64,000 bases of DNA from Paramacrobiotus metropolitanus (taxonomy: Eukaryota; Tardigrada; Eutardigrada; Parachela; Macrobiotidae). The stretch covers positions 1,054,001 to 1,118,000 of the forward strand of contig NW_026570259.1 in the NCBI RefSeq assembly GCF_019649055.1, written 5' to 3'. Below the pieces are notes generated by a model, which saw only the letters and a program-made list of their open reading frames with translations, did no database searches and had not been told where the DNA came from. A program made the position numbers and the translations under genes. Below, in pieces: positions 3,278-63,159 of the stretch (position 1 is its first letter; every line of letters begins with the position of its first letter).

Positions 3278-3879
3278 TCAGTCTTCCTCAATGTTTATGA
3301 ACAGATTTTTGGGTCCAAGAGGGCTTACAATATGGCTGTTTAAGGCTTTCCTGATTAAGAGTTCGTCGAATACGGTTAAAGAACCCAGTGCCTTATATGG
3401 ATCCGTCAGAGGAGTAAAATCTCCTCTCTGGGCCGCGATTTGCTTCATTTCTTCAGATTTTTGTAGATATTCCGGGACTTTCCGCGGGTAAGCCGCGGGG
3501 ACATGATGATCGTTCGTAGCTGCATTATGTGAGGGGATTTCATCAGCATGTGTAGTTAGACCGAGACGAGCTAGGAAACATTATCTTTAACAGAAAATCA
3601 AATCTTCAACAGTGGTTTTTAGCTTAGAAGTGACATTGTCGTACAAGGATTCTCCACAAGATCACTGAGGACTTCCGTGTTCTTCAACTGCACTAGTTTG
3701 CGGAACTGGTAGCTGGATAGTCCTTTGGGAATATCCCACCATTTCCCAGCTCTGCAGGAAATACAACAAAACAGATCTATGTCTATTTTAAAAAAAAATA
3801 TCTCCAGTTTAAATACGCGATCGGACAGATTAGAAACGAATAGCTTGACTCACTTCTTCCCCATTTCAGGTGAAAACAT
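3278..3879 (-). CDS. Unrecognised small 141-aa protein, three exons
   Basis: Minus-strand exons 3879-3854, 3751-3645 and 3570-3278 join in phase across two GT-AG introns (the first starts GTGAGT; acceptors end TGCAG and CCTAG). The frame starts MFSPEMGKK and stops with TGA at 3278-3280. The protein is hydrophilic, with a Trp-rich start (KWWDIPKG), a Pro/His-containing middle and a helical end (VFDELLIRKALNSH). AATAAA-like sequence lies ~150 bp downstream, just before the next gene starts at 3076. An upstream exon cannot be excluded, since the frame is open for some codons before the chosen Met. Family unknown. The size and composition would fit a small structural protein, but that is a guess. 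Confidence 0.52.
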
Positions 3880-49907: not shown

Positions 49908-50288
49908 ACTGGTGTCCATGCATAAAACCAAAAACCCGCCTAAGAAGAAAAATATCCGTAAAAAAATTAAGGTCAAAATTTTCACAATTTCAAAACATTT
50001 AATTAAACTTGTAGGAGAAATGGATAGCATGGACACTGGTGTCCATGCATAAAACCAAAAACCCGCCTAAGAAGAAAAATATTCGCAAAAAAATTAAGGT
50101 CAAAATTTTCACAATTTCAAAACATTTAATTAAACTTGTAGGAGAAATGGAAAGCATGGACACTGGTGTCCATGCATAAAACCAAAAACCCGCCTAAGAA
50201 GAAAATTATTCGCAAAAAAATTAAGGTCAAAATTTTCACAATTTCAAAACATTTAATTAAACTTGCAGGAGAAATGGAAAGCATGGAC
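49908..50288. repeat. Tandem repeat, three copies of a 127-bp unit
   Basis: Units start at 49908, 50035 and 50162, each with ACTGGTGTCCATGCATAAAA. They differ at only a few positions; the third unit ends in GCATGGACGCTAATGT. Each unit contains an AT-rich half with AATTTCAAAACATTTAATTA. The array abuts the 3' end of LINE A, so it may be part of that element's 3' tail or a local satellite. The unit length is not a multiple of three, so a coding repeat is unlikely. Confidence 0.9.
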
Positions 50289-52900
50289 GCTAATGTACTG
50301 ATCGTCTGTGTACTGAGACAACGAGCAAAATTACAAGCAGTAACATAACGATTTGATTGCATATGGGGGAACACTTTATTGCATATGCAAGAATTTCTTT
50401 GACCATTTCAGTTCTTTCCAATTGACGTCATCCAGAGCTTGACGGAACGTTCGGAGAAATTTGTAGGAGGATAGTGGTAAGGAGACTTCATTCCACAGAG
50501 GTGTTATTCTGTCACTGAAACCGCCGGAAACAGGGAGGACCGTAACGCGACATGCAGTTGTCGGTGCTGGCGAAATTGGTAAATAATGGTTTTCAAGCCA
50601 CCGGATACTTCGCGCGTTTCCAGAAACAGATTGAGACAAGACAGCAGACACTGTGTGCTTTTGTAAAAACTTGTCACATAAAGGTGTAATTTCAAAAAGA
50701 AGCTTGTAAATAAAAATCAATAATTTTTTGGCATTTCGTATTCTGAAATTGTCCGAGTGGAGTTCTTCCAGCCTGAGCCGATATTCACAAGTTTCGTTGC
50801 CGAGACGCACCGAGGACACAAACTTTTCGATACAACGCTCAACTTTATCCTTGGAAGTTTTAAGCAGTGGAAAAACGACAGGCGCACAATAATCCATAAC
50901 AGGAAAAACCAGTGATTTAAATAAAGAAATTCGTGCGGCAGAATCGCGAAAGCGAAACAATGAATTAATATACCAAATTCTTTTTTTGCATTTTAAAGAA
51001 ACATTGCCTGCATGGGGTTTAAAACAAAGTTCACGATCAATTTCAACGCCTAAATATTTAACTTTTTCGCGATAGCTAATCAGCACTCCGTTTAGACGAA
51101 ATTCACCCTTCATATCAACAAAACGTTTTTTGGAAAACTGCATATGAACGGACTTATCAGCTTTAAAGCATAAACCATTAGATGCCGCCCAATAGAAGAG
51201 AGAATTTATGTCTTCCTGCAAAAGGTCACTGCTGTTTTCGGCAACAAGAGGACGTAGTAAAACAATGTCATCAGCGAAAATCAATACGATGCTGTTATTA
51301 AGTAGTATCAACGGCACTTTGTTTAATATACAAATGAACAGTAACGGTCCCAAAATTGAGCCCAGAGGTACACCACTTGTAACTGCTGATATTTGAGAAC
51401 AGAACTCGCCAAGAGAAACACACTGGGTACGACCTTTAAGGTAATCGTAGATTAAATGGACTATTTGACTGGGTACACTTAGCTCGATTAACGATGTGAT
51501 GATGCTAAGGTGGTCGCACTTGTCAAAGGCTTTAGAACAGTTGAGAAAAACCGCAGCGACATCTATTCCATTACCAATAAAATCCGAAACAATTTTCACA
51601 AAGTAACAAATTTGCAATTCCGTGGAGCGTTTACGGCGATAAGCAAATTGGTGGTTGCCGAGAGCGTCGTTCGTGCGTAAACAATCATTTAAAACTTCGG
51701 ATAAACAGCGCTCAAAAATTTTCGAAATCGGGTTAAGCAAAGATATTGGGCGGTGGCTGCTGGGAAGGGTCAAATCACATCCTTTTTTGGGAATGGGCAC
51801 AACGTACGACTTTTTCCACACTTGTGGATATGTACCTTCATTGAGCGCTGCATTAAAAATTAGGCTCAATGGAAAAACGATTGGTTCACCCGCTGCTTTC
51901 AGCAACTTATTTGTCACTTCAAACTAACCACTTGACGTACTCGTACAAATTAACGACAACTGCAACAATATGGTAGAAATGTCGACAGTGACCCTAGAAG
52001 TGTTGCTGCATACCAAATCCGAAGGGGCGATACGACAATTTTGGAGACAGGCAGAATGAAATGCACAAAAAACAGTATTTAGCACCTCGGCTTTTTCACG
52101 ATCCGTACAGGCAAGAGCTGGGCCGTCAGTTTTAAGGGGGGCAATGGACTGTACACAATTTCTGGTTTTCATGAACTGCCAAAATTTCGTCGGATTATTT
52201 CGATAACTTAATGCACTTTCCGTTATTCGATGGCTTTCGAACTTTTTCACTACTTCCTCTGCATTACGGGATAACACTAGCCATTCTTCCCTCCTCTTAG
52301 CACGCAAGGTAGAGACAGCTTGGCGATAGCGCCTAAATGCTTTATCGCGAGCACGTATCGCTTTTTTAACGGGGAGCGGATATGCAGGCATGCCAGTTTT
52401 TATTTTACCCGCTTTAAGAAGAAATACAGATTTTGCAATACTTAAGAATTTTTCTTCAAAGGCAACAGCTCGTTCTTCAGCGCTAGAATTATTAAACATA
52501 GTTACCCAGTCAACATTATTTAAAATCTCTTGAAAAGCGATAAATTTATTAGACGCAAGAAACCATTTTTTTACTGTGAGTACTACAGCCCTTTTGACTT
52601 TCGCTTTCATATCAATTTGCAAACCGATGTGGTCATTAGATACGGATGGAGGGGCAATTTGGCTGACGTTTCTACACAAAGTATTCGTGGAGAAAAAGCA
52701 CAGATCGAGACAGTTTTGTTTTCTAGTGGGAAATTTAATCAGTTGCTGTGAATTAAACAGTTTGAGAGAAAACAAAAGATATTTAACACCAGCAGACCGA
52801 GCACAAAGCGAAAGCCAATCTATGTCAGGCAAATTGAAGTCGCCCATAAGAACAGTTTTTGCTAGCATTTCTGTAGAGAAATTATCATGCAGGTGTTCAA
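50289..52900 (-). mobile_element. LINE A, 3' half (rest at 60348-62438)
   Basis: This is the downstream part of a non-LTR retrotransposon lying on the minus strand. It holds the C-terminal part of the endonuclease, the reverse transcriptase and a 3' UTR with AATAAA. At 52900 it stops abruptly within the endonuclease. The next element begins there, and the matching upstream half resumes at 60348. Confidence 0.9.
50376..52868 (-). pseudogene. LINE A ORF2: endonuclease C-terminus and reverse transcriptase
   Basis: The frame is open for ~830 codons except for one TAG at 51924-51926. The upstream portion has the apurinic-type endonuclease motifs GDFNLPDIDW and SNDHIGLQ. The downstream portion has reverse transcriptase motifs: SSHRPISLLNPISKIFER, AVFLNCSKAFDKCDH, SGVPLGSILGPLLFICILN, the catalytic FADDIVLL and the thumb-side KVKYLGVEIDREL. 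In most such elements the second motif reads DxSKAFD; here Asn replaces the first Asp. The C-terminus lacks an RNase H domain. The architecture fits the Jockey/CR1-type group. The single stop and little else suggest recent activity. Confidence 0.85.
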
Positions 52901-53010
52901 GGTTAGGTAAGATTCACATAATCATAATCATAAAACATAACTCATAAAACATAAACATAAAACATAATTCATAAGCATAATCATAAACACAACTCATAAT
53001 TTTACTCATA
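52901..53010 (+). repeat. Left terminal inverted repeat of the 7.4-kb element
   Basis: It starts GGTTAGGTAAGATTCACATA and continues with ATCATAATCATAAA and further degenerate CATAA words. It matches the inverse complement of 60229-60338 with few differences. Confidence 0.85.
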
Positions 53011-53200
53011 AAAGTGTTCTTGCTCATAAAGAACGATAGCGCGCTTAATAAATGCTTTATACCGATAACATCTACATATATACACTACAGTACGTATTCT
53101 AAAAGTATGAAATAATTTTACCGACTGTTGCTTACACTAGTAAGCTGACACGGTAACTATGATACAGTACTGTGGTTTAATAAGACTTATTAAGGCTTAG

Positions 53201-53229
53201 TACTGTACTGTTACCCTGCACTTGCCGAA
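53201..53229 (+). repeat. Inner inverted repeat flanking LINE B, left copy
   Basis: The words TACTGTACTGT and ACCCTGCACTTGCCGAA recur as inverse complement at 58556-58583, on the other side of LINE B, with a one-base difference. The surroundings are rich in TACTGTA words on both sides. This may be the remnant of a further TIR element split by LINE B. Confidence 0.65.
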
Positions 53230-53512
53230 ATTTCGTACAGTGTGCGCAGTTAGGTGCTGTATGCCGTCTATGACAATAGACAACTTTATTCCCCCAGATT
53301 TCTTCTGGCAGAGGCACACCATGCGTTGTGCCGTATGCTCAAGCATAAACAAGCATAAACAATTATGTGATTTTGCAACACACACTGAAGATGTCAAGGA
53401 AATAATATTAAGCATAACAAGTTAGAGATGCAAAAAACCTCATGCAAAATTAAACAAAAATGAATTTATGGATTTGACTACATTTTAGTTATACCGTGCA
53501 CAATTTAAGGCT

Positions 53513-54348
53513 TTACGTAGGCAACAGTACTAATTCGCCGCTAAATACTTTGCGGCTATCTATCAAAACCTGGTTAAAAAAGTTGCTTAAACAAAAGAAC
53601 AATGTTTTCTCGTACTCCATCGGCGTCTCCTTTCTTCGTAGTAAAGTCTGCATTGTTTCCACTAGTCCGCCGTCCTGTATTGAATGGTCATGGGCAGCTA
53701 GCCGCTCCTGCAGTTTCTGTCTGTGTGGAAAATACGCAGGACATTCATTCAGAGCATGATACTCGTCCTCCACAACCCCATAGAAGTTACATATCCGCTC
53801 CTCTCGGGGCAAAGCGTTCCATCTTCCTGTCTCCACAGCAAAGTAGTGGCCGGAAGTCAACATTTTCATCCAGTTTCCGCTTGTCATTGCAGGCATCGTT
53901 TTCAATAGGTGCACTTCTCCGCTTTCTGGTAGACACTGAAACAAGAACGCAACCTGCTGCTCCTGGCAGCATTATCCTGTACCGACTTAAATAGATTCAT
54001 CCGGAATGTTTTCTCGAGCCTCGACATTATGTCAACTGAACTCAGCTTTGCTAGCTGAATACGAATATCTTGGACGGTATTTGTTAAGTTAATTTCGATT
54101 TCTTCCGGTAATTGCCTAAGCGCGTTTTTTAGCCAACATCGCGTTCTCTTTTTGCCAACCGAAATGCTTTCCTCAAATGCTGCTCGAAGAAGAGTGCCTG
54201 AGTTTGCGTGACTGAGCTTTTCGATGAAGCGCATCTGCTGTCTTACTTGTCTTAAACTTAGTGGTAAGAGATTCAAAAGGTATACAATAGCATCAGTGCT
54301 CGTAGTGCTTCGGAGGCTAAAAATCCGTTTGGCAAAGTTTATTTGCAC
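53513..54348 (-). pseudogene. LINE B ORF2 C-terminal region
   Basis: Two overlapping minus-strand frames (54348-53902 and 53944-53513) carry the region after the reverse transcriptase. The second contains WNALPREERICNFYG and EDEYHALNECPAY, the C-x-x-E-x-H-x-L-x-x-C type motif often found at the C-terminus of non-LTR ORF2 proteins. A frame change separates the two pieces. Confidence 0.75.
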
Positions 54349-54510
54349 TTTGTCAATTTCGCTGTTTTTCCCGCATAATTCCGACCCATTATTTTACTAC
54401 GCTTCCTACAATTGCTTCGAAAATTGTTTGCGCAGTCTTCCACGTAAACCCGGTTTTTAACCCTGACAATTTCTGTACTGCCATGTTATATCCCACTTTG
54501 ACTCGCTCCG

Positions 54511-56016
54511 TTAAATGTTCAGCTGATTTTTCAGATCACACTGTTCGTTTAACACAAAACCCAGGTACCTAAATTCTTCAACCTGTTTCAGTTGTCGCCC
54601 ATCGATCTCAATGTGGCAGGAAATCTGCCTTCGCATACCACCTTTCGCTACCATACAGAAAGACTTCGCGTAATTTATTATCAGCTCATGATCCAGCGCA
54701 AACTTACTTAATCGTTCTACCGAAACCAACAACTCATCTTTGTTTCCGCTTTTCAATACAATATCGTCGGCAAATTTTAGGAGGTACACTGGTAGTTCGC
54801 CAAGTGTAATATCGGTTGTACGCCCCTCTCTCACATATTTTGTTAAAAGGTCAACGTATATATCGAATAGCATTCCTGAGGACGGATCTCCCTGTCTAAC
54901 ACCTTTTTCTAACGGGAAAAATTTTGAAAACTGGTTATTCCATTTCACACAATTTTTTGCTTTTTTTTTTTTTAAAAAAAAATGCAGCATTTTTGATGAA
55001 ATTCCTAACTCAATTAAGCGTTCCCACAATTTTTGGTGGCACACTGTGTCAAATGCACTCGTAAAATCGATAAAAGCAAGGAAAACCGGCTTTTTCTGGA
55101 AAGCATATTTCTCACAGATTATATGTAATACGAACACCTGATCCATTGTGCTCCTGCCTTCTCGAAACCCACCTTGATCATCTTCAATGTTTGCCTAGAG
55201 CTCAATCCTTTTTGCTATAACTGACGATAACAGACGCATTGGTAACGGTTCTACGACAACTGGTCGACAATTTTCAGGACAATACGTTCTTGCTGGTTTC
55301 GGTACCGGCGTCAACGTGCCATTTAGCCAATCTTGTGGGATAAATCCCGTGTCAAGCACATAATTAAATGTATCTGCCAAAATTTGCAAAAACTGGTTGT
55401 TTGCACACATTTGTTTGAACGTTTCAGTGCGTAGCGGAAACGCACCGCTGCTGCTTCCGCCGCTTATTTTTTGAACAACTCTTTCAATTTCTGAAACAGT
55501 GATTTTAGAGTCTAATACCGGTATCGAGGGGGAAAGGTTCTCGTTTTGTTTTGTGGTTACCGCTGGAACATAGGCTGCCTGCTGTCTAAAATTTTCGTAT
55601 AGGTCATTCAAGTTGAGAGGAACGGCAGAGTCACATTTGACTTCGTTTCCCCTGAAGCCTAATATGTTCCAAAACATTTTCGGGTTTTCGTGTTGTAAAC
55701 GCTTTACTCGATTCCAGTACTCTTGCTCATAAATGGTATTGTACTGCCTTACCTTTTTCTGAAATTGGTTTCTCGCCGACCAAAAGACCTCCCGCGTTTC
55801 TTCAGTGTTCTTCGCATTCATTTTTTTCCAACATTGTATTTTGATGTTTTTTAGTTCGAAAATTTTGTTCTGCATTACCTGAAGTTGTGGTGTAAAAGGG
55901 TCAAAAGGTATCCGTCGTTTTCTGGTGTTCAGTCTTACATATTCGACCACGCTGTCAAACAAAGTTGTACCCAGATTTCTCATATACTGGGCTTTATTCC
56001 CGCTGAGAAAAAACAC
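54511..56016 (-). pseudogene. LINE B reverse transcriptase
   Basis: Pieces 56016-55195 and 55146-54511 together carry the connecting region and the palm: CRPVVVEPLPMRLLSSVIAK, LAFIDFTSAFDTVCH, KGVRQGDPSSGMLFDIYVD and the catalytic FADDIVLK. A stop and frame change near 55150-55195 separate the pieces, next to an A/T homopolymer at ~54960. The gene is not functional as written. Confidence 0.85.
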
Positions 56017-56110
56017 AACATGCTGTCAATCTTCGGCGTTATCAGCGAATTCTTGTCATTAAACTTTGTACCGTTATTTTTGGATGACCTTGCGATGTCC
56101 ATGTTTACCA

Positions 56111-57148
56111 CTATTTTGAGCGGTAAATGATCTGAAAAATCAGAATTTTCAAAATATCAAACTTTAAAACTTTTTCAACTGCCTGCTGAAAAATTATCAT
56201 ATAATCTACGACTGATTGACCATTGTAATGTATACACGTATACTTAGATGGGAAGGATTTTCCAAAAGACATTAAGCCATTTACCGGTATCATACCGTTC
56301 ACGTTACAAAACTCAATTAGTTTTTTCCCTCGTGCTGTCGGACGACTATGCTGATTATCCACATTCTGCAGATGAACATATTCAATAATTCCCGACTCAT
56401 TTTCCAGGAGAGAATCTTCCTGCCACGCTTTTGGCTCTAAATCTGCTATGCGTGCATTAAAATCACCGCATAACAAAACGTAGCCATCGGACTTTGCGCG
56501 CTGAACTATTTCTGTAAGTTTTTCGAAAGTTTCTTTATCATCAACGTTCACTACAGAGTTGTACGGGGCGAGGTAGGCACATACCATGACAACATTTTCT
56601 TTTTCAGAAACATTTATTTTTACTGCTAAAACATCGCAACTAGCTTCTTGGTCGTATACAATGCTACACTTGAACTTATTTTTTAAGTATACTGTAATGC
56701 CGCCTCCAGCAAATGTCGTTCGCACCTTTGACACCGTTTGATAGCCAGCCACTTGTTTTATTTCGTATTCGCTTTTCAGATGTGTTTCAACAAGTGCAAC
56801 AATATCATGTTTCTTGATGAATTCAGTGAAATCTTTTTCGAACAAATTAAACACTCTTTTTAAACCGTTAACGTTCAGATAGACTATCGATAACTTCGTG
56901 TGCAAATTTTCGGTTATACACGTATTCCTGCTGTTACCGCTCTCTTCCGTTGACCACTTGAGTAGCCCGACAGATGGTTCCATACTAAGATTACGTTCCG
57001 TTGACACATTTGGTAGCCCGACAAATTTTTCGTTAATATCGCACTGCTCCGTTAAGCTCAGCCGATCGTTAAGTCGAAATTCCGATTGACGCCATCTCTG
57101 TTTAGCTTTAGTATCCATTAGTACAAAATAGTCCCGATTGACGCTCAT
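56111..57148 (-). pseudogene. LINE B endonuclease domain
   Basis: After a ~80-residue variable leader the frame holds the apurinic-like endonuclease: SIVYLNVNGLKRVFN, DIVALVETHLKSE, AGGGITVYLKNKFKCSIVY, VMVCAYLAPYN, LLCGDFNARIADLE and SKYTCIHYNGQSVVDYMI. The expected Asn, Glu and Asp catalytic residues are visible. The frame breaks at its 3' end (about 56111), before the connecting region. Confidence 0.82.
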
Positions 57149-57496
57149 GTGGTTCAGCTAGTGGAGTATCGGTACACTGTCCACCATTTTTTATAAAACC
57201 AGCACACGAGTTATTCAGCTCGCTGTCTATCATGTTGGCCCTTCCGACCGTATCTTTTTCGATTATGTATACTTTCAATACAGTACATTCTGTTTGGTCT
57301 TCCAGTGACGGGCTATCAACCCGGATATCAATGTGCTCGATCATTTGCGAGGTCCGGCAGCCTGATCTACGGATAATTCCGGTCTGGTTTTGTGTATTCA
57401 TCTTGCTTTCATGACAGTAATCCGCAAACGTTTTACAAAAAGAACTTTCAGCATTTTTACACAAATAATATGGATCAGGGTCATTCGTTGTCAGGG

Positions 57497-58399
57497 CTAG
57501 TTTTTTGAAAAAGTTCGGGTTTTTAGAATTTTACTGACCTTTATTTTAGTATCGTGATAAACAGGACACCGCTTATGGTCAAACGCATGATGTTGGTTTT
57601 CTCCTGGCTGTCTTCCCGAGCTGATGCAATTAATGCATTTAGGAGCATCGTCCCAGTTGCAATTACAGTTTTCAAAACGATGTGATTCATTACAAAACCC
57701 GCAGTGTGTTGCAAAAGTGCATGTTTCTTTTCGATGGCCGTACCGACAGCAATTCCCGCACTGAATTATGTGAAAATGTTCTTCAACTGGACATATTTCA
57801 AAATCGACTGTAACCTTTCCCCTTCTCAGTAAAGATTCCGCAGTATCAGCGCTAACTTCAACTACAAAAGCACACGTTTTTATGTTTTCGTTTCCGCTCT
57901 CGAGCTTCACAACCACTTTGATATTTTCCTGAAACTTCTCCAGCGAATTTTGACTGATAAGCTTTTCCAGAAATTCAGCTTTAGAGACGACCTTGCTAAC
58001 TTTACGGATAATTAACCGAGGCAATTTCTGTTTAGGTTCAGACACAGAACATTTCAGACTGTCGCTGCGTTTAGTGATTTCCGCCTTACCTTTTTCGTAG
58101 TCCGCTCGAGTTGGAAACGTCATGATCACTGACTTCCCGTGGCCCGCTTTCACATTTTTCAGTGCGAATGTCCGGCTTTCGGGTGGGATATGGTCCTGAA
58201 GAGAAGCTTTGAATGATCGTATGGTTTGTGGGTCTGGCTTCGCGGGTGTGTTGGTGTTACCGGCTTTTTCCACATCTGTTGGTCGAATACTTAGCACATG
58301 ATCTGACTGCACATTTTCCCTGTTTGCGCTCCAAAATTCACGTCGGTTATGGGGTGCACCGGCATTATTGTGTTTGATATGAGCCGGTTGCGTGTACAT
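57497..58399 (-). pseudogene. LINE B ORF1, zinc-knuckle nucleic-acid-binding protein
   Basis: A 300-codon frame starts MYTQPAHIKHNN. It contains an RRM-like central region (TFALKNVKAGHGKSVIMTF, PRLIIRKVSKVV) and Cys/His knuckles: CGNCCRYGHRKETC, CGFCNESHRFENCNC and CINCISSGRQPGENQHHAFD. ORF1 of LINE A has the same order of motifs. The frame is intact as read, but downstream ORF2 is broken, so the element as a whole is inactive. Confidence 0.78.
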
Positions 58400-58555
58400 T
58401 CTGCTATGTCCGGGTGCGCCGCCATCTTGGATTTCGATTATCTCAGGTTTTTCACTGCCGGCTTCTTTCCATGCTTGTAAATCTTTTCACAGTTACGATC
58501 GCTATGTGAATCGTGATAGCGATCGTACAACGTACGCCTGGCTGCACTAGTGACT

Positions 58556-58583
58556 TTCGGCAAGTGCAGGGTACAGTACAGTA
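58556..58583 (-). repeat. Inner inverted repeat flanking LINE B, right copy
   Basis: TTCGGCAAGTGCAGGGTACAG and the following TACAGTA are the inverse complement of 53201-53229. Confidence 0.65.
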
Positions 58584-59727
58584 GGTAGCAGTACAGTACT
58601 TTACAGTATCGCTGTACAAAGACGTCACAAAATTAAGATATAAATGCATGTCACAAAAACACGAAATAACAAAATCTTAAAGCATGGAAACTGCCATAAA
58701 GTGGCTCGTGCACGGTAACATGAATCTTATGTCATTCAAAAGAAGTTTAATTGTAACTATTTTCTTGAAAAACAAAGATCAACGCAAAGCCATAAACTCA
58801 TCGCTATTCAACTGGCGAGTTTCTATTGTTCTCATACTGTGGCGAAAAAATCGGCAATCTCCTGTAACTCAGTTTGCGAAAACAAAATCGCTTTATCCAT
58901 TTGGCACTGCTTCGGAGAGAATTTTGGATGGCGTTTTCGGACACAAGCAACCTGCATGCAGTATCTTCTTTTTCGAGGTACACTGATTATGGACTTTCCT
59001 CCCGTTCCGTTTTGGTAGTCAAACTCCTCCCTCGCGACGAATAACTGTGACCCTGTCCTGTTCTTCAGGATAGTTTTACAACCTGGGCAGCAACATTGAG
59101 CGTGGACCTGGTTTTGTTTAGAAATAACGAATGGTTCCGAGGCCTCCGTTTTTCGGGTCTTTGAAACATGTGATACATCTTGCTGAAAAAAAAAGATCTT
59201 ATAGTCTTAATAATACCTTACAAGACTCAGAAAAATGAGAGCACCTGTCAATAACATTTGCCGGCGTACACGCCCCCGTTAATTTACCAGTTCAGGAAAA
59301 CTGACCTTGTCCAAATCTTTCCAACGGCTGTTTCAGTAGTGCCCGATTTTATACGCTCTTTATTGCCCCTGGCAAACAAGATATACGGTTCCGGATACAG
59401 ATCCACGACCGAATGTTCAGAATGCTCATCAGCTGACAATATTTCGGAGATGTCGTGCTCGGAACTGACAGAGTCCAGCGAAACTTACATGTCAGGAAAG
59501 CTCAAGCTCGGTGATGGAGATCTAAGTTCTACGGACCTGTACAACGAAGTTCGCCATGCATGACGTGTATAACCTGATATACAAAGAATTTACCTCTTTC
59601 GCTTTCTTGCCGGGTGCTCTTCGATGTCCATCGATGAGGCTGCTCTATCCATGGTGCCAAGAACGTCCATATTTATACTTAGCACGAAAACGTTCGGCGC
59701 ATGTCAAAGAGCTGAACGCAGGTCAAA
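58584..59727. other. Right part of the 7.4-kb element, no clear gene
   Basis: Two plus-strand frames (58684-58986 and 59258-59566) have no recognised domain. The second has an acidic Ser/Cys-rich stretch (CSECSSADNISEMSC) and may be a fragment of a captured or transposon gene. I see no transposase motif. Confidence 0.4.
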
Positions 59728-59960
59728 TTAAGCATACATCCTGCATAATCGAGTAAACATGGGAAGACACATTGTCTTTGGTAGCGGCACGGGCTTTGTT
59801 ACAAGCAGCGGTGCTGCCATCGCCTGCCACAAGAGCGGCACGGGCGCTATCAGCCTCAGCCTGGATAACGGGGGCAAACTGGTGCATGGGGTTAGATGGC
59901 GATTGTATTGCCTCCTCGGCGGCACACTGAACTGCTGGGTCAGTACTAGAGATTAGACAA
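59728..59960 (-). pseudogene. GC-rich coding-like segment, possibly a captured exon
   Basis: The minus strand encodes an Ala-rich, amphipathic stretch without stops (TDPAVQCAAEEAIQSPSNPM, IQAEADSARAALVAGDG, ACNKARAATKDNV) followed by a donor-like GTATGC. Base composition is clearly more GC-rich than the surrounding transposon DNA. No family is recognised. It could be a host exon captured by the TIR element, or chance. Confidence 0.35.
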
Positions 59961-60000
59961 TCAACAATAAGACCACTTCTAGCTTGGTAACAGATGTTTT

Positions 60001-60070
60001 CAGTGGCGCGTTTAGGGGGGTGCCAGAGGAGCCATGGCTCCCCGTAACTTGAAGATTCGGGGTACTCCAA
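60001..60070 (+). mobile_element. hAT-like transposon end (solo)
   Basis: The sequence CAGTGGCGCGTTTAGGGGGG, then GGAGCCATGGCTCCCC, resembles the termini of many hAT elements (CAGTGGCG start, G-run, GGCCATGGCC-type palindrome). No matching inverted end was found nearby, so this is at best a fragment. Confidence 0.35.
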
Positions 60071-60228
60071 AAATGGCAATGGTACCCCCTTGACAAATTT
60101 TCGGCTAATTTTAAAACTGGCGCACAATACAAAAAAAACCATGTTTTTGATAGATTTAAAGTTATCGCCCTGCGGTAGAAACAAGGAATCAGTTGTTGTC
60201 TTGACCACTGGCATTTAACTGGAATTTG

Positions 60229-60338
60229 GAATTTATGAGTTAATTTTTATGAGCGTAGTTTATGATTATGTTTATGAATTATGTTTAATGTTTATGAATT
60301 ATGGTTTATGATTATGATTATGTGAATCTTACCTAACC
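60229..60338 (-). repeat. Right terminal inverted repeat of the 7.4-kb element
   Basis: It ends TATGTGAATCTTACCTAACC, the inverse complement of the left end, and is preceded by degenerate TTATG words. The 9-bp repeat GGTGTTCAA follows at once. Confidence 0.85.
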
Positions 60339-60347
60339 GGTGTTCAA

Positions 60348-60755
60348 TCAGAACGAACATGTCAGAATGAGATTTGTCAGGGGAGGAGAGTAATATACAA
60401 TAAAGAATTTATCTAGGTCAGCCGAATGCACACAAATTGCTTCAATGCTTAATGGCTCTCGTTCAGGGCATCGGTACGCTGTGTACCGTTTGCGTATAAC
60501 CAGAGCAACACCACCACCCGTATCATAAGACCTTCTTCTTCGAAAGACGTTAAAAGACCGTTGATCAGCGAAGAGAGAATCAGTGTAGGGCTCTTTATCC
60601 CTGGTTTCGACAAGTCCAGTTATGTCTGATTCGGAACAAAACAGCTTGACCTGTGCCATTTTAATACAAATGCCATTAATAGTACAGAAACGGATACGCA
60701 CGTATTGCCGATTGCGCTTACGCGCGACACATTTTTTGGTAAAATATAACAACAA
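60348..60755 (-). pseudogene. LINE A ORF2 N-terminus (endonuclease, first part)
   Basis: The frame reads VRIRFCTINGICIK, SESDITGLVETRD, RRRRSYDTGGGVALVIRKR, SIEAICVHSADLDKFFIVYYSPP: the start of an apurinic-like endonuclease. A one-base frame change after YYSPP (near 60380) leads into a frame that continues across the insertion site into GDFNLPDIDW of the 3' half. Confidence 0.82.
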
Positions 60756-60792
60756 CTTTTAGTTGAATAATCAGTTAATTTTGCCGGTTTTT

Positions 60793-62438
60793 TTAATAAT
60801 TTCGGTTGAAAAAGTAACGTGAATTTCGAACTTCTGCAAAAGAGTGACACGTCGACTGATCAAAAGCAGAGTGTTGATTTTCTGGTGCCGGCACACCATT
60901 AGCAACACAGTTCACACAAACACAAGCATAATTCTCATTTTCCGGGCAATCGGAGGCTTTATGCGGCTTAGTACAGTATGCACAACGCGGAGCGTTCTGA
61001 CATTTCGATACAGTGTGGCCATACGCACAACAACGCCTGCACTGCGGAACGTAAAAGTGATCTTCACTGGGACAAACAAACCAGCGAATCAAAAGGGACT
61101 TTTTCGTTAGCAAGGAATTGCGACTTGCCTGATCAACATCCAAAACATAAGCGCACGTAGTTACATTTTCGCGATAGCTAGCACCCGTGCTCCATTCCTC
61201 ATTCAACTACGGATACGGCCGAACGATACGGACCTTGTTGTCTATAGCGTTTAGTCTGCGTGCTTTATACACGTTTATGTCAATGCTTAGCCATTGTTTA
61301 GTGTGCCAGTGCATGGGTCTAATAATGCTTGCAATTCTGAGCTGTGTTGTATCACATGCCTTCTGTAGCGGAGTTTGATAATGAGCGTGTGTTGTGTTCG
61401 GCCAGGTTTAAATTCCCATGCTGTATGCAAAACACAGCAGGTTAATGGGTTACCTGCTACCAAGAAGAAACTATTAAACTATTAAACTATAGCTTTTAAG
61501 TTTGGTAACAACCTTTAGTATGCATTCATCGGAAAGATTATTTTTTGTGCGAATATCATTTAAGACGACATCTTCCGCTAAATCAACAGGAACACGGCGC
61601 ACAATAATTCTGTTCAAGCGAACTTTAGTTTCGACTACCTCAAGCCCAATGGTATTAGCATGTTTACTCAAGATTTCTTTACCTTTCTGGGCGCTTTCGA
61701 TGTCGTTGAACTCCAAAAGAACTCCTTTTCCATGGATAGGCCGCATATGGGATACAGTCAGGTCAACGGTATCGGGAGGTAGTGCGTTATTCAGGGCGTT
61801 GGAGATCTTTGCCATTTCAGCAACGGTGGTGCGTGAACGGTCACCAGTCGGAGGGGACGTAGGCTTCAGGATAAGTGCCGGTGGCTTCGGAGTGGCATTA
61901 TTGGACAGACCGCGGCTTTCTTCCAGAATGGGACGATGTACAACGGGATTGATTTGGCAATGGACGCGAAAGAAGGCTTGAAGACAGCGGTTGGGAAGCT
62001 GACTGTTGACGTGGAAGCGCGAGATTCACTGAGTTTCTGTACTGTTTGTTCATGAAGTTCGGCCAATCGATCAGTCCATTTATGAAGAAGTCCAGCACTT
62101 TCACCAAGGAGACCATACTGAGCAGTAATGTTACACTGAACAAGCTTCGTAATAAATTTGTCGATCGTATTCTTCACTTTAGCAAAACCAAGATTAGATG
62201 GATCGGTAGATTTAAGAGATTCAACAAAATCAGCTATCTCATCCCCCATTTTGGGGATAAGTTTAAACGTAAAGGTCACCCAGTTATTACGTGCAGTTTG
62301 TAGACCATCAGAAAGTCTAAATTTATTACCCAGTTGATAGAGCTGCAGAGGCAAGAAAAAATATATATAACAGATGTGTAGTCGTACGCAGTCTGTAGTT
62401 TTGACCTTCGCACTATGCTGTAAACATAAAGCAGGCAA
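60793..62438 (-). pseudogene. LINE A ORF1, broken by frame changes and a SINE-like insert
   Basis: Three pieces are visible: 62438-61866 (contains MGDEIADFVESLKS and a helical part), 61815-61474 (RRM-like; DTVDLTVSHMRPIHGKGVLL, NRIIVRRVPVDLAEDV) and 61206-60793. The last has the zinc knuckles CRRCCAYGHTVSKC, CAYCTKPHKASDC and CVNCVANGVPAPENQHSAFD. A frame change lies near 61866-61930. Between KVVTKLKS and EEWSTGASYRENVT a ~290-bp non-coding insert interrupts the protein. Confidence 0.8.
61205..61497 (+). mobile_element. SINE-like insertion in LINE A ORF1
   Basis: The insert interrupts ORF1 at a position where the homologous LINE B protein is continuous. On the plus strand it has a possible Pol III A box (TAGCGGAGTTTGATAATG, ~61366) and a B box (GGTTTAAATTCC, 61405-61416) about 40 bp apart. 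It ends in a short tail of ATTAAACT repeats (61467-61491). A folded tRNA is not convincing and no clear target duplication was found. Confidence 0.42.
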
Positions 62439-63159
62439 AGCGCACGCCTAAGCAGAGCAGATCAATCATCAGAGAGAAAGGAAAGAACCGCCGCAACCTG
62501 GCCTATATAGACGCGGTCCCTGATAAAATATTATCTTTTGTCACAGCCAGCACTAATAAAACTTAAAAATATTAGTTCTTTTTATGAGACAGATACTGTA
62601 TGTACAGACGTACTGTTTTTACTTGGTAAGATGAGTATCTACTTGTATGTTAGATTGTTCTTCTATTTTTTAAGCATAGGCCGCTAAAAGCATAGAAATT
62701 AATCAGAAAGAGAAACCCATTACGAAGTTGCTAGCAGTCAATAATATTTTTCTTCGTTTTTGTCTCGGGAAGTTTGTAAGGGTTGGCTTGAATTTGTGCA
62801 CGATTCTCGACAGCATTCTGTACAGGAGAAAGTTGAAATTTCTTTAGCTGGCGCGGAGTGTGGGGAAGGCCTTATTGATTCAGTAAATTATGCCCGGTTC
62901 CCTTAAACGCAGTAAAGGAAGAACTTTTCTGCAAGTAAAAACAACCATTGAGACCGTGCAGCTTTAAAGAACTGGAAACAGAAGAACTTTTGGGACGACC
63001 AAGTTGCTTTCGCAACAATGTTTGTATATCTTGATAGTATTTCGTTATTTGAAACTGATAAAGGCCAAATAAACCAAATTAATCCCCATAGTGCAAAAGC
63101 CAGACCCTGCTGTCCCAGCAGTACTTACGGTTAGTACTCACTATAAATCATGTTAGTAC
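62439..63159. other. Intergenic between LINE A 5' end and UFD1 3' end
   Basis: AT-rich, with no gene seen. It should include the UFD1 3' UTR near its right end. Confidence 0.5.

Follow-up and report, generated by a model that had tools for sequence, protein, structure and literature searches.

What interrupted a retrotransposon in the genome of the tardigrade Paramacrobiotus metropolitanus, and in what order did the mobile elements now found inside it arrive? The question is raised by a 64,000-nucleotide stretch of contig NW_026570259.1 (assembly GCF_019649055.1), which we call the window (C39:1054001-1118000, forward strand). There, a first-pass annotation had described a long interspersed nuclear element, LINE A, as cut in two by a 7.4-kb element with terminal inverted repeats (TIRs). 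We searched the 169.8-Mb assembly of 533 contigs, in which 63 matches to nuclear-receptor zinc fingers bespeak an animal, and assigned domains with Pfam models; C numbers below are contigs of this assembly, L numbers are loci or copies fetched from the same genome for comparison, and bare coordinates are positions in the window. Our reading, to which we give a probability of about 87%, is that LINE A was hit in its endonuclease domain by a Mutator-like cut-and-paste DNA transposon with Foldback-style ends, which duplicated 9 bp of its target.

LINE A lies on the reverse strand in two parts. The 3′ portion (50376–52900), identified by homology to L045 and L048–L052, encodes the C-terminal part of the endonuclease and the reverse transcriptase (RT), with Pfam matches to RVT_1 (PF00078, 1e-27) and Exo_endo_phos_2 (PF14529, 2.4e-6). 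The 5′ portion (60348–62447), identified by homology to the same copies across the site and by translation, encodes the start of the second open reading frame (ORF2), which is the N-terminal part of the endonuclease, together with an ORF1 with CCHC knuckles. A genome search with an 812-base query, made by fusing the left and right LINE A flanks at the target-site duplication (TSD), found six uninterrupted copies. L045 is 92% identical across the full 812 bases, and the left and right flanks both align to this one contiguous copy (~92–93.5%); five further copies at 68–72% identity likewise cross the insertion site unbroken. A single (A/G)GTGTTC(A/G)A stands at the site in all six. One of them, L048, has an intact 460-amino-acid ORF running through the site as ...LLLIEHLHDKFS... 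/ ...YYSPPNKSYSDILLLIEHLHDKFSPAMLSRTVLVGDFNLPDINW..., in agreement with the rejoined ...MFVLIEH/LHDNF... of the window. In these uninterrupted copies, which the first-pass annotation had suggested looking for, the two halves are joined; its placement of the cut inside the endonuclease domain stands. Its further claim that the two halves rejoin in frame held at the join itself, where deleting 52901–60347 restores the frame, but it stays open only locally. Some 40 bp past the join, LINE A in the window carries 2 bp more than L045 and L048, so it decayed there independently of the insertion.

The interrupting element is 7438 bp long (52901–60338). It is bordered by two perfectly matching copies of the 9-mer GGTGTTCAA (52892–52900 and 60339–60347), present as a single copy in the uninterrupted LINE A relatives. 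Among lengths of 4–15 bp, GGTGTTCAA is the only direct repeat at the exact element borders, and the chance of a 9-bp match at a given border is 4^-9, or ~4e-6. A chance duplication is ruled out by this border test and by the recurrence of 9-bp TSDs in the family described below. The left TIR (52901–53013, forward strand) begins with GGTTAGGTAAGATTCACATAATCATAA, and the right TIR (60232–60338, reverse strand), which pairs with it in inverted orientation, ends with the reverse complement of GGTTAGGTAAGATTCACATAATCATAA. The outermost 67 bp are 90% complementary ungapped, and ~110 bp are 83% complementary when gaps are allowed. Both ends consist of tandem-repeat arrays, one 112-bp arm containing the word CATAA 13 times and the other 11 times, versus 0.65 times in shuffled sequences (maximum 4 of 1000). 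Thus, the 9-bp duplication and the ~110-bp inverted CATAA ends of the earlier description stand.

The same ends recur in the genome. The recurrence search recommended by the first-pass annotation gave 4 exact places for the element end motif and 19 within 3 mismatches, versus 1 for a reversed-pattern control. The resulting CATAA family comprises about a dozen elements with the same ends, among them members on C74, C118, C381, C14, C73, C19 and C117. Complete pairs of ends delimit a 7,073-bp element on C118 with an exact 9-bp TSD (TGCTTTGAT), a 980-bp element on C14 with an exact 9-bp TSD (GTCAGTGTG) and a 4,335-bp element on C74, whose TSD copies (ATGCTACTG/CTGCTACTG) are alike at 8 of 9 positions. 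The TIRs in C74 and C118 are 157–186 bp long at 93–94%. The C74, C118 and C381 members are ~92–95% alike, and each carries a gene in several exons. At L075, a CATAA-element left end with its flank, CGGTCTAGCCCGGTC, is present twice, 4.5 kb apart (C73:375483 and 379988), which suggests a tandem duplication that took in the element end.

The gene carried by the larger members encodes an intron-containing transposase. Relatives of this protein, ~60% identical, lie at C58:884263-885393 and C9:336900-340600 (L082 and L083), with no CATAA ends in the fetched flanks; they are either sister families or domesticated copies. Where examined, in C118 and C9, the exon borders are GT..AG. Blocks conserved between C118 and C9 include SVDLDVKFNLT (first D), KIKTDDEAAL (second D), LCCNH (CxxH), PHTNDVEGVNNLLG (E) and the SWIM-like KFECRCx11CKH. 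In the spliced C118 protein, the putative triad is D279, D357 and E485, with the two D residues separated by 77 residues, 127 between the second D and the E, and the CxxH (C377xxH380) 20–23 residues past the second D. The SWIM-like CRCx11CKH, seen in two relatives, has no Pfam SWIM match, and a similar pattern arose in 5 of 2000 shuffles. A C-terminal Cys-rich domain is encoded by the 3′ exon in C74 and C118. From these motifs and their spacing, we infer that the transposase would use a DDE active site of the RNase-H-like kind; it would also bind the CATAA-repeat ends.

The copy in the window is a decayed, non-autonomous derivative of such an element. Beyond its left TIR, 53113–53182 aligns with positions 1328–1397 of the C74 element (74%). 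On the reverse strand, 58664–59134 is a relic of the transposase 3′ exon with the Cys-rich domain (78–79% to C74, C118 and C381; C74 positions 1571–2044), and 59304–59709 is a relic of the 5′ exon region (75–78% to C118 and to C74 positions 3418–3820), followed by the right TIR. This order is that of the C74 element. The catalytic exons are missing, the gap falling between the two exon relics, so that if the window copy moved in its present form, its transposase came in trans. A copy reduced to relics of the first and last exons would then have been mobilized by the transposase of a full-length member.

The element is itself the host of further insertions. The first-pass annotation had stated that it contains a second LINE, and LINE B is indeed inside it, but it sits in a miniature inverted-repeat transposable element (MITE) and not directly in the TIR element; the latter placement was dropped in favor of the MITE. 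The MITE, palindromic and flanked by TA, spans 53203–58581 and is split into 53203–53272 and 58502–58581. These halves are contiguous in L019–L024, L043 and L044 at 91–99%, and the MITE is unbroken, TA-flanked and without LINE B in at least 6 other genome places. LINE B (53273–58501, reverse strand) encodes an ORF1-like product, an endonuclease (Exo_endo_phos, 2e-10) and an RT (RVT_1, 8e-27). Its TSD, CTATG, lies inside the MITE at 53268–53272 and 58502–58506, and its 3′ tail is a degenerate form of the (TTGTC)n of its family. Thirteen other LINE B copies have the same 3′ end with a GACAA-type tail and varying flanks, as retroposition would leave them.

Three more insertions or fragments in the interval were absent from the earlier list. 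An internal piece of another retrotransposon, LINE C, with neither LINE end, occupies 59745–60000 and 60148–60198 on the reverse strand (span 59745–60198; fragment 309 bp; 93% to L028–L031). Since neither LINE C end is in the fragment, it is not accounted for by retroposition and was likely captured in a repair-type event. Because of an open frame there, 59745–60200 was also considered as a captured host exon, and this was rejected in favor of the LINE C fragment. The parent bears an RT domain (RVT_1, 1.4e-23 in L031), and its copies L028–L031 (on C402, C50, C121 and C36) have a CCHC-like knuckle and are ~99% identical along stretches of up to 3 kb. Full copies being this alike, LINE C is young, and it has probably been active recently. 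The second addition is a 140-bp repeat (CAGTGGCGC...) at 60001–60140 within the LINE C fragment, with the TSD ATGTTTT at 59994–60000 and 60141–60147. The third, in ORF1 of LINE A, is a 309-bp repeat resembling a short interspersed nuclear element (SINE) at 61180–61488, with the TSD ATAGCT at 61174–61179 and 61489–61494 and absent from L045; one end of this SINE-like repeat is repeated, of the CTATTAAA type, and about a dozen complete or nearly complete copies at 92–97% occur in the genome. Directly past the LINE A 3′ end, at 49908–50288, a 127-bp unit stands three times in tandem, its copies ~98% alike.

How far, then, can the layers be ordered, and is transposition needed to explain the split at all? 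The surroundings are rich in repeats and the TIRs are made of low-complexity CATAA words, which would suit an assembly chimera or a rearrangement as the cause. Three things argue the other way: 9 bp are duplicated without mismatch exactly where the TIRs end, L045 runs contiguously through both flanks and has the 9-mer once, and TSDs of this length recur at other family members. We rejected a chimera on the contiguous L045 and the TSD, so that the probability of such an origin is vanishingly small. Nothing that the first-pass annotation had named as fatal to its interpretation (LINE A relatives lacking the site or failing to join the halves, or a chimeric assembly) was found. LINE A is older than the TIR element. 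The MITE certainly preceded LINE B, and the LINE C fragment certainly preceded the 140-bp repeat. The earlier ordering, LINE A, then the TIR element, then LINE B or capture, thus keeps its first two steps, and its third is refined to retroposition of LINE B into the MITE. Nesting by itself cannot order an internal insertion and the transposition of its carrier, and MULE-type elements (Mutator-like elements) of 7–10 kb are on record (PMC13359780), so LINE B and the MITE may have been aboard when the element jumped, in which case LINE B was not the last event. We consider this somewhat unlikely. Private substitutions are fewer in LINE B than in LINE A (11/880 vs 57/2447, P = 0.052, in two comparisons that use different outgroups), and no second element copy with LINE B at the same place was present among the loci compared. 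We therefore lean, weakly, toward insertion of LINE B after the TIR element had landed in LINE A. On this sequence of events, the TA-flanked MITE would have inserted into the TIR element and LINE B would then have retroposed into the MITE, the LINE C fragment probably entering by gap repair or template switching and the 140-bp repeat striking it later.

To which group the element belongs is a separate matter. MULEs are described by TSDs of 8–11 bp, long TIRs and SWIM fingers (PMC6446971), and in arthropod MULEs the two D residues are 60–76 residues apart (84 in Ghost) and the second D and the E mostly 120–135 (PMC13359780); the active element Muta1 shows D214, D283, H307 and E419 (PMC5225508). 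In the CATAA family, exact 9-bp TSDs flank the window, C118 and C14 elements and C74 has one matching at 8 of 9 positions, all within this range, and the TIRs, ~110 bp in the window and 157–186 bp in C74 and C118, are long. By motif, C118 and C9 have the D-D-E spacing and the CxxH, the D-D distance of 77 being just over 60–76 and under the 84 of Ghost. Several observations weigh against a Mutator-like assignment. The 1,077-bp pair on C73 has a weak TSD, and several family ends have no partner inside the stretches fetched. The choice of catalytic residues comes only from motif and spacing, and the conserved W of Muta1 is absent from the expected position. The transposase gave no sequence match in Pfam (PF10551 included), NCBIfam or PDB, whether searched as single exons (Pfam) or spliced, and the Pfam MULE model PF10551 matches at least 38 genome places above its cut-off, none of which is the CATAA family. 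AlphaFold2, run on the 408-amino-acid transposase exon with three sequences, returned a mean predicted local distance difference test (pLDDT) score of 31 and no usable fold. The PF10551 matches show, as an observation in their own right, that ordinary MULEs abound in this genome and that several of them have long open frames (843 amino acids on C50, 512 on C68).

That the Pfam model detects numerous other elements in the assembly but not this transposase would favor another group with 9-bp TSDs, either Rehavkus, which likewise has 9-bp TSDs and TIRs of 26–400 bp (PMC6446971), or a separate divergent DDE lineage, with MULE-likeness confined to the TSD and the ends; the C-terminal Cys-rich domain, of no recognized type, points the same way. 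Against this, the SWIM-like CxCx11CxH, the CxxH past the second D and the D-D and D-E spacing all suit MULEs (PMC13359780, PMC5225508), and the PHD finger and the minisatellite before the 3′ TIR that distinguish Rehavkus (PMC6446971) were not seen here in a search that was not exhaustive. We judge membership of such a group decidedly unlikely. That the transposase represents an undescribed DDE lineage with 9-bp TSDs, beyond present MULE models and with its own zinc set (SWIM-like plus C-terminal Cys-rich), is a tentative proposal and, in our estimate, unlikely. We file the element as Mutator-like in structure and mechanism, on the strength of its structure and motifs, and not as a proven MULE, because there is no sequence match to the MULE family model.

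Foldback elements (FB/NOF) of Drosophila have long TIRs with internal repeats and TSDs of 9 bp. The CATAA ends likewise are TIRs of short tandem repeats (11–15 CATAA words per arm versus a shuffle mean below 1), and repetitive long TIRs with 9-bp TSDs are a likeness to Foldback and Rehavkus that we compared by description only. A closer parallel in layout is Muta5 of Aedes aegypti, with a 151-bp TIR of nine 15-bp repeats, an 8–9 bp TSD and three exons (PMC5225508). Shared features are TIRs in which a short terminal motif is followed by subterminal tandem repeats, TSDs of 8–9 bp, a multi-exon transposase and many internally deleted derivatives. Unlike the 15-bp unit of Muta5, the words here are 5–7 bp, and whereas the Muta transposases are recognized MULEs, the CATAA transposase has no Pfam match and shows SWIM-like and C-terminal Cys-rich domains. 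Tm1 of root-knot nematodes, of the Mutator/Foldback kind (PMC3169594), is also similar in its composite TIRs (a terminal motif and variable-length tandem repeats), its 9-bp TSDs and its mixture of MITE-like and transposase-bearing members, but it has a Phantom-like transposase with an N-terminal FLYWCH finger and ends with asymmetric 7-bp motifs. The captured LINE C piece recalls animal Pack-TIRs, in which a repair-type capture has been proposed (PMC8277862), in that a ~300-bp foreign fragment without its own ends lies between TIRs. Pack-TIRs and Pack-MULEs are defined by captured host sequence other than transposable elements, however, and the piece here is a retrotransposon fragment with an RT-bearing parent; a survey of 100 animal genomes found no Pack-MULE (PMC8277862). 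Grouped here by domains and not by clade phylogeny, LINEs A and B resemble LINEs with an apurinic/apyrimidinic (APE)-type endonuclease, and LINE C is a third LINE that bears an RT: Pfam gives endonuclease and RT domains in A and B and RT in C, and there are CCHC knuckles and, in LINE B, a simple-repeat 3′ tail with a short TSD.

Nested transposons are common, and this nest is an ordinary one, though unusually well resolved, its insertion order being read with an empty site as the control. It also anchors a small animal transposon family, which we regard as new, apparently undescribed and of the Mutator/Foldback kind, and whose transposase current libraries miss. If it is true that this family is a new MULE-like clade, the annotation of animal genomes would undercount the MULE-like group.

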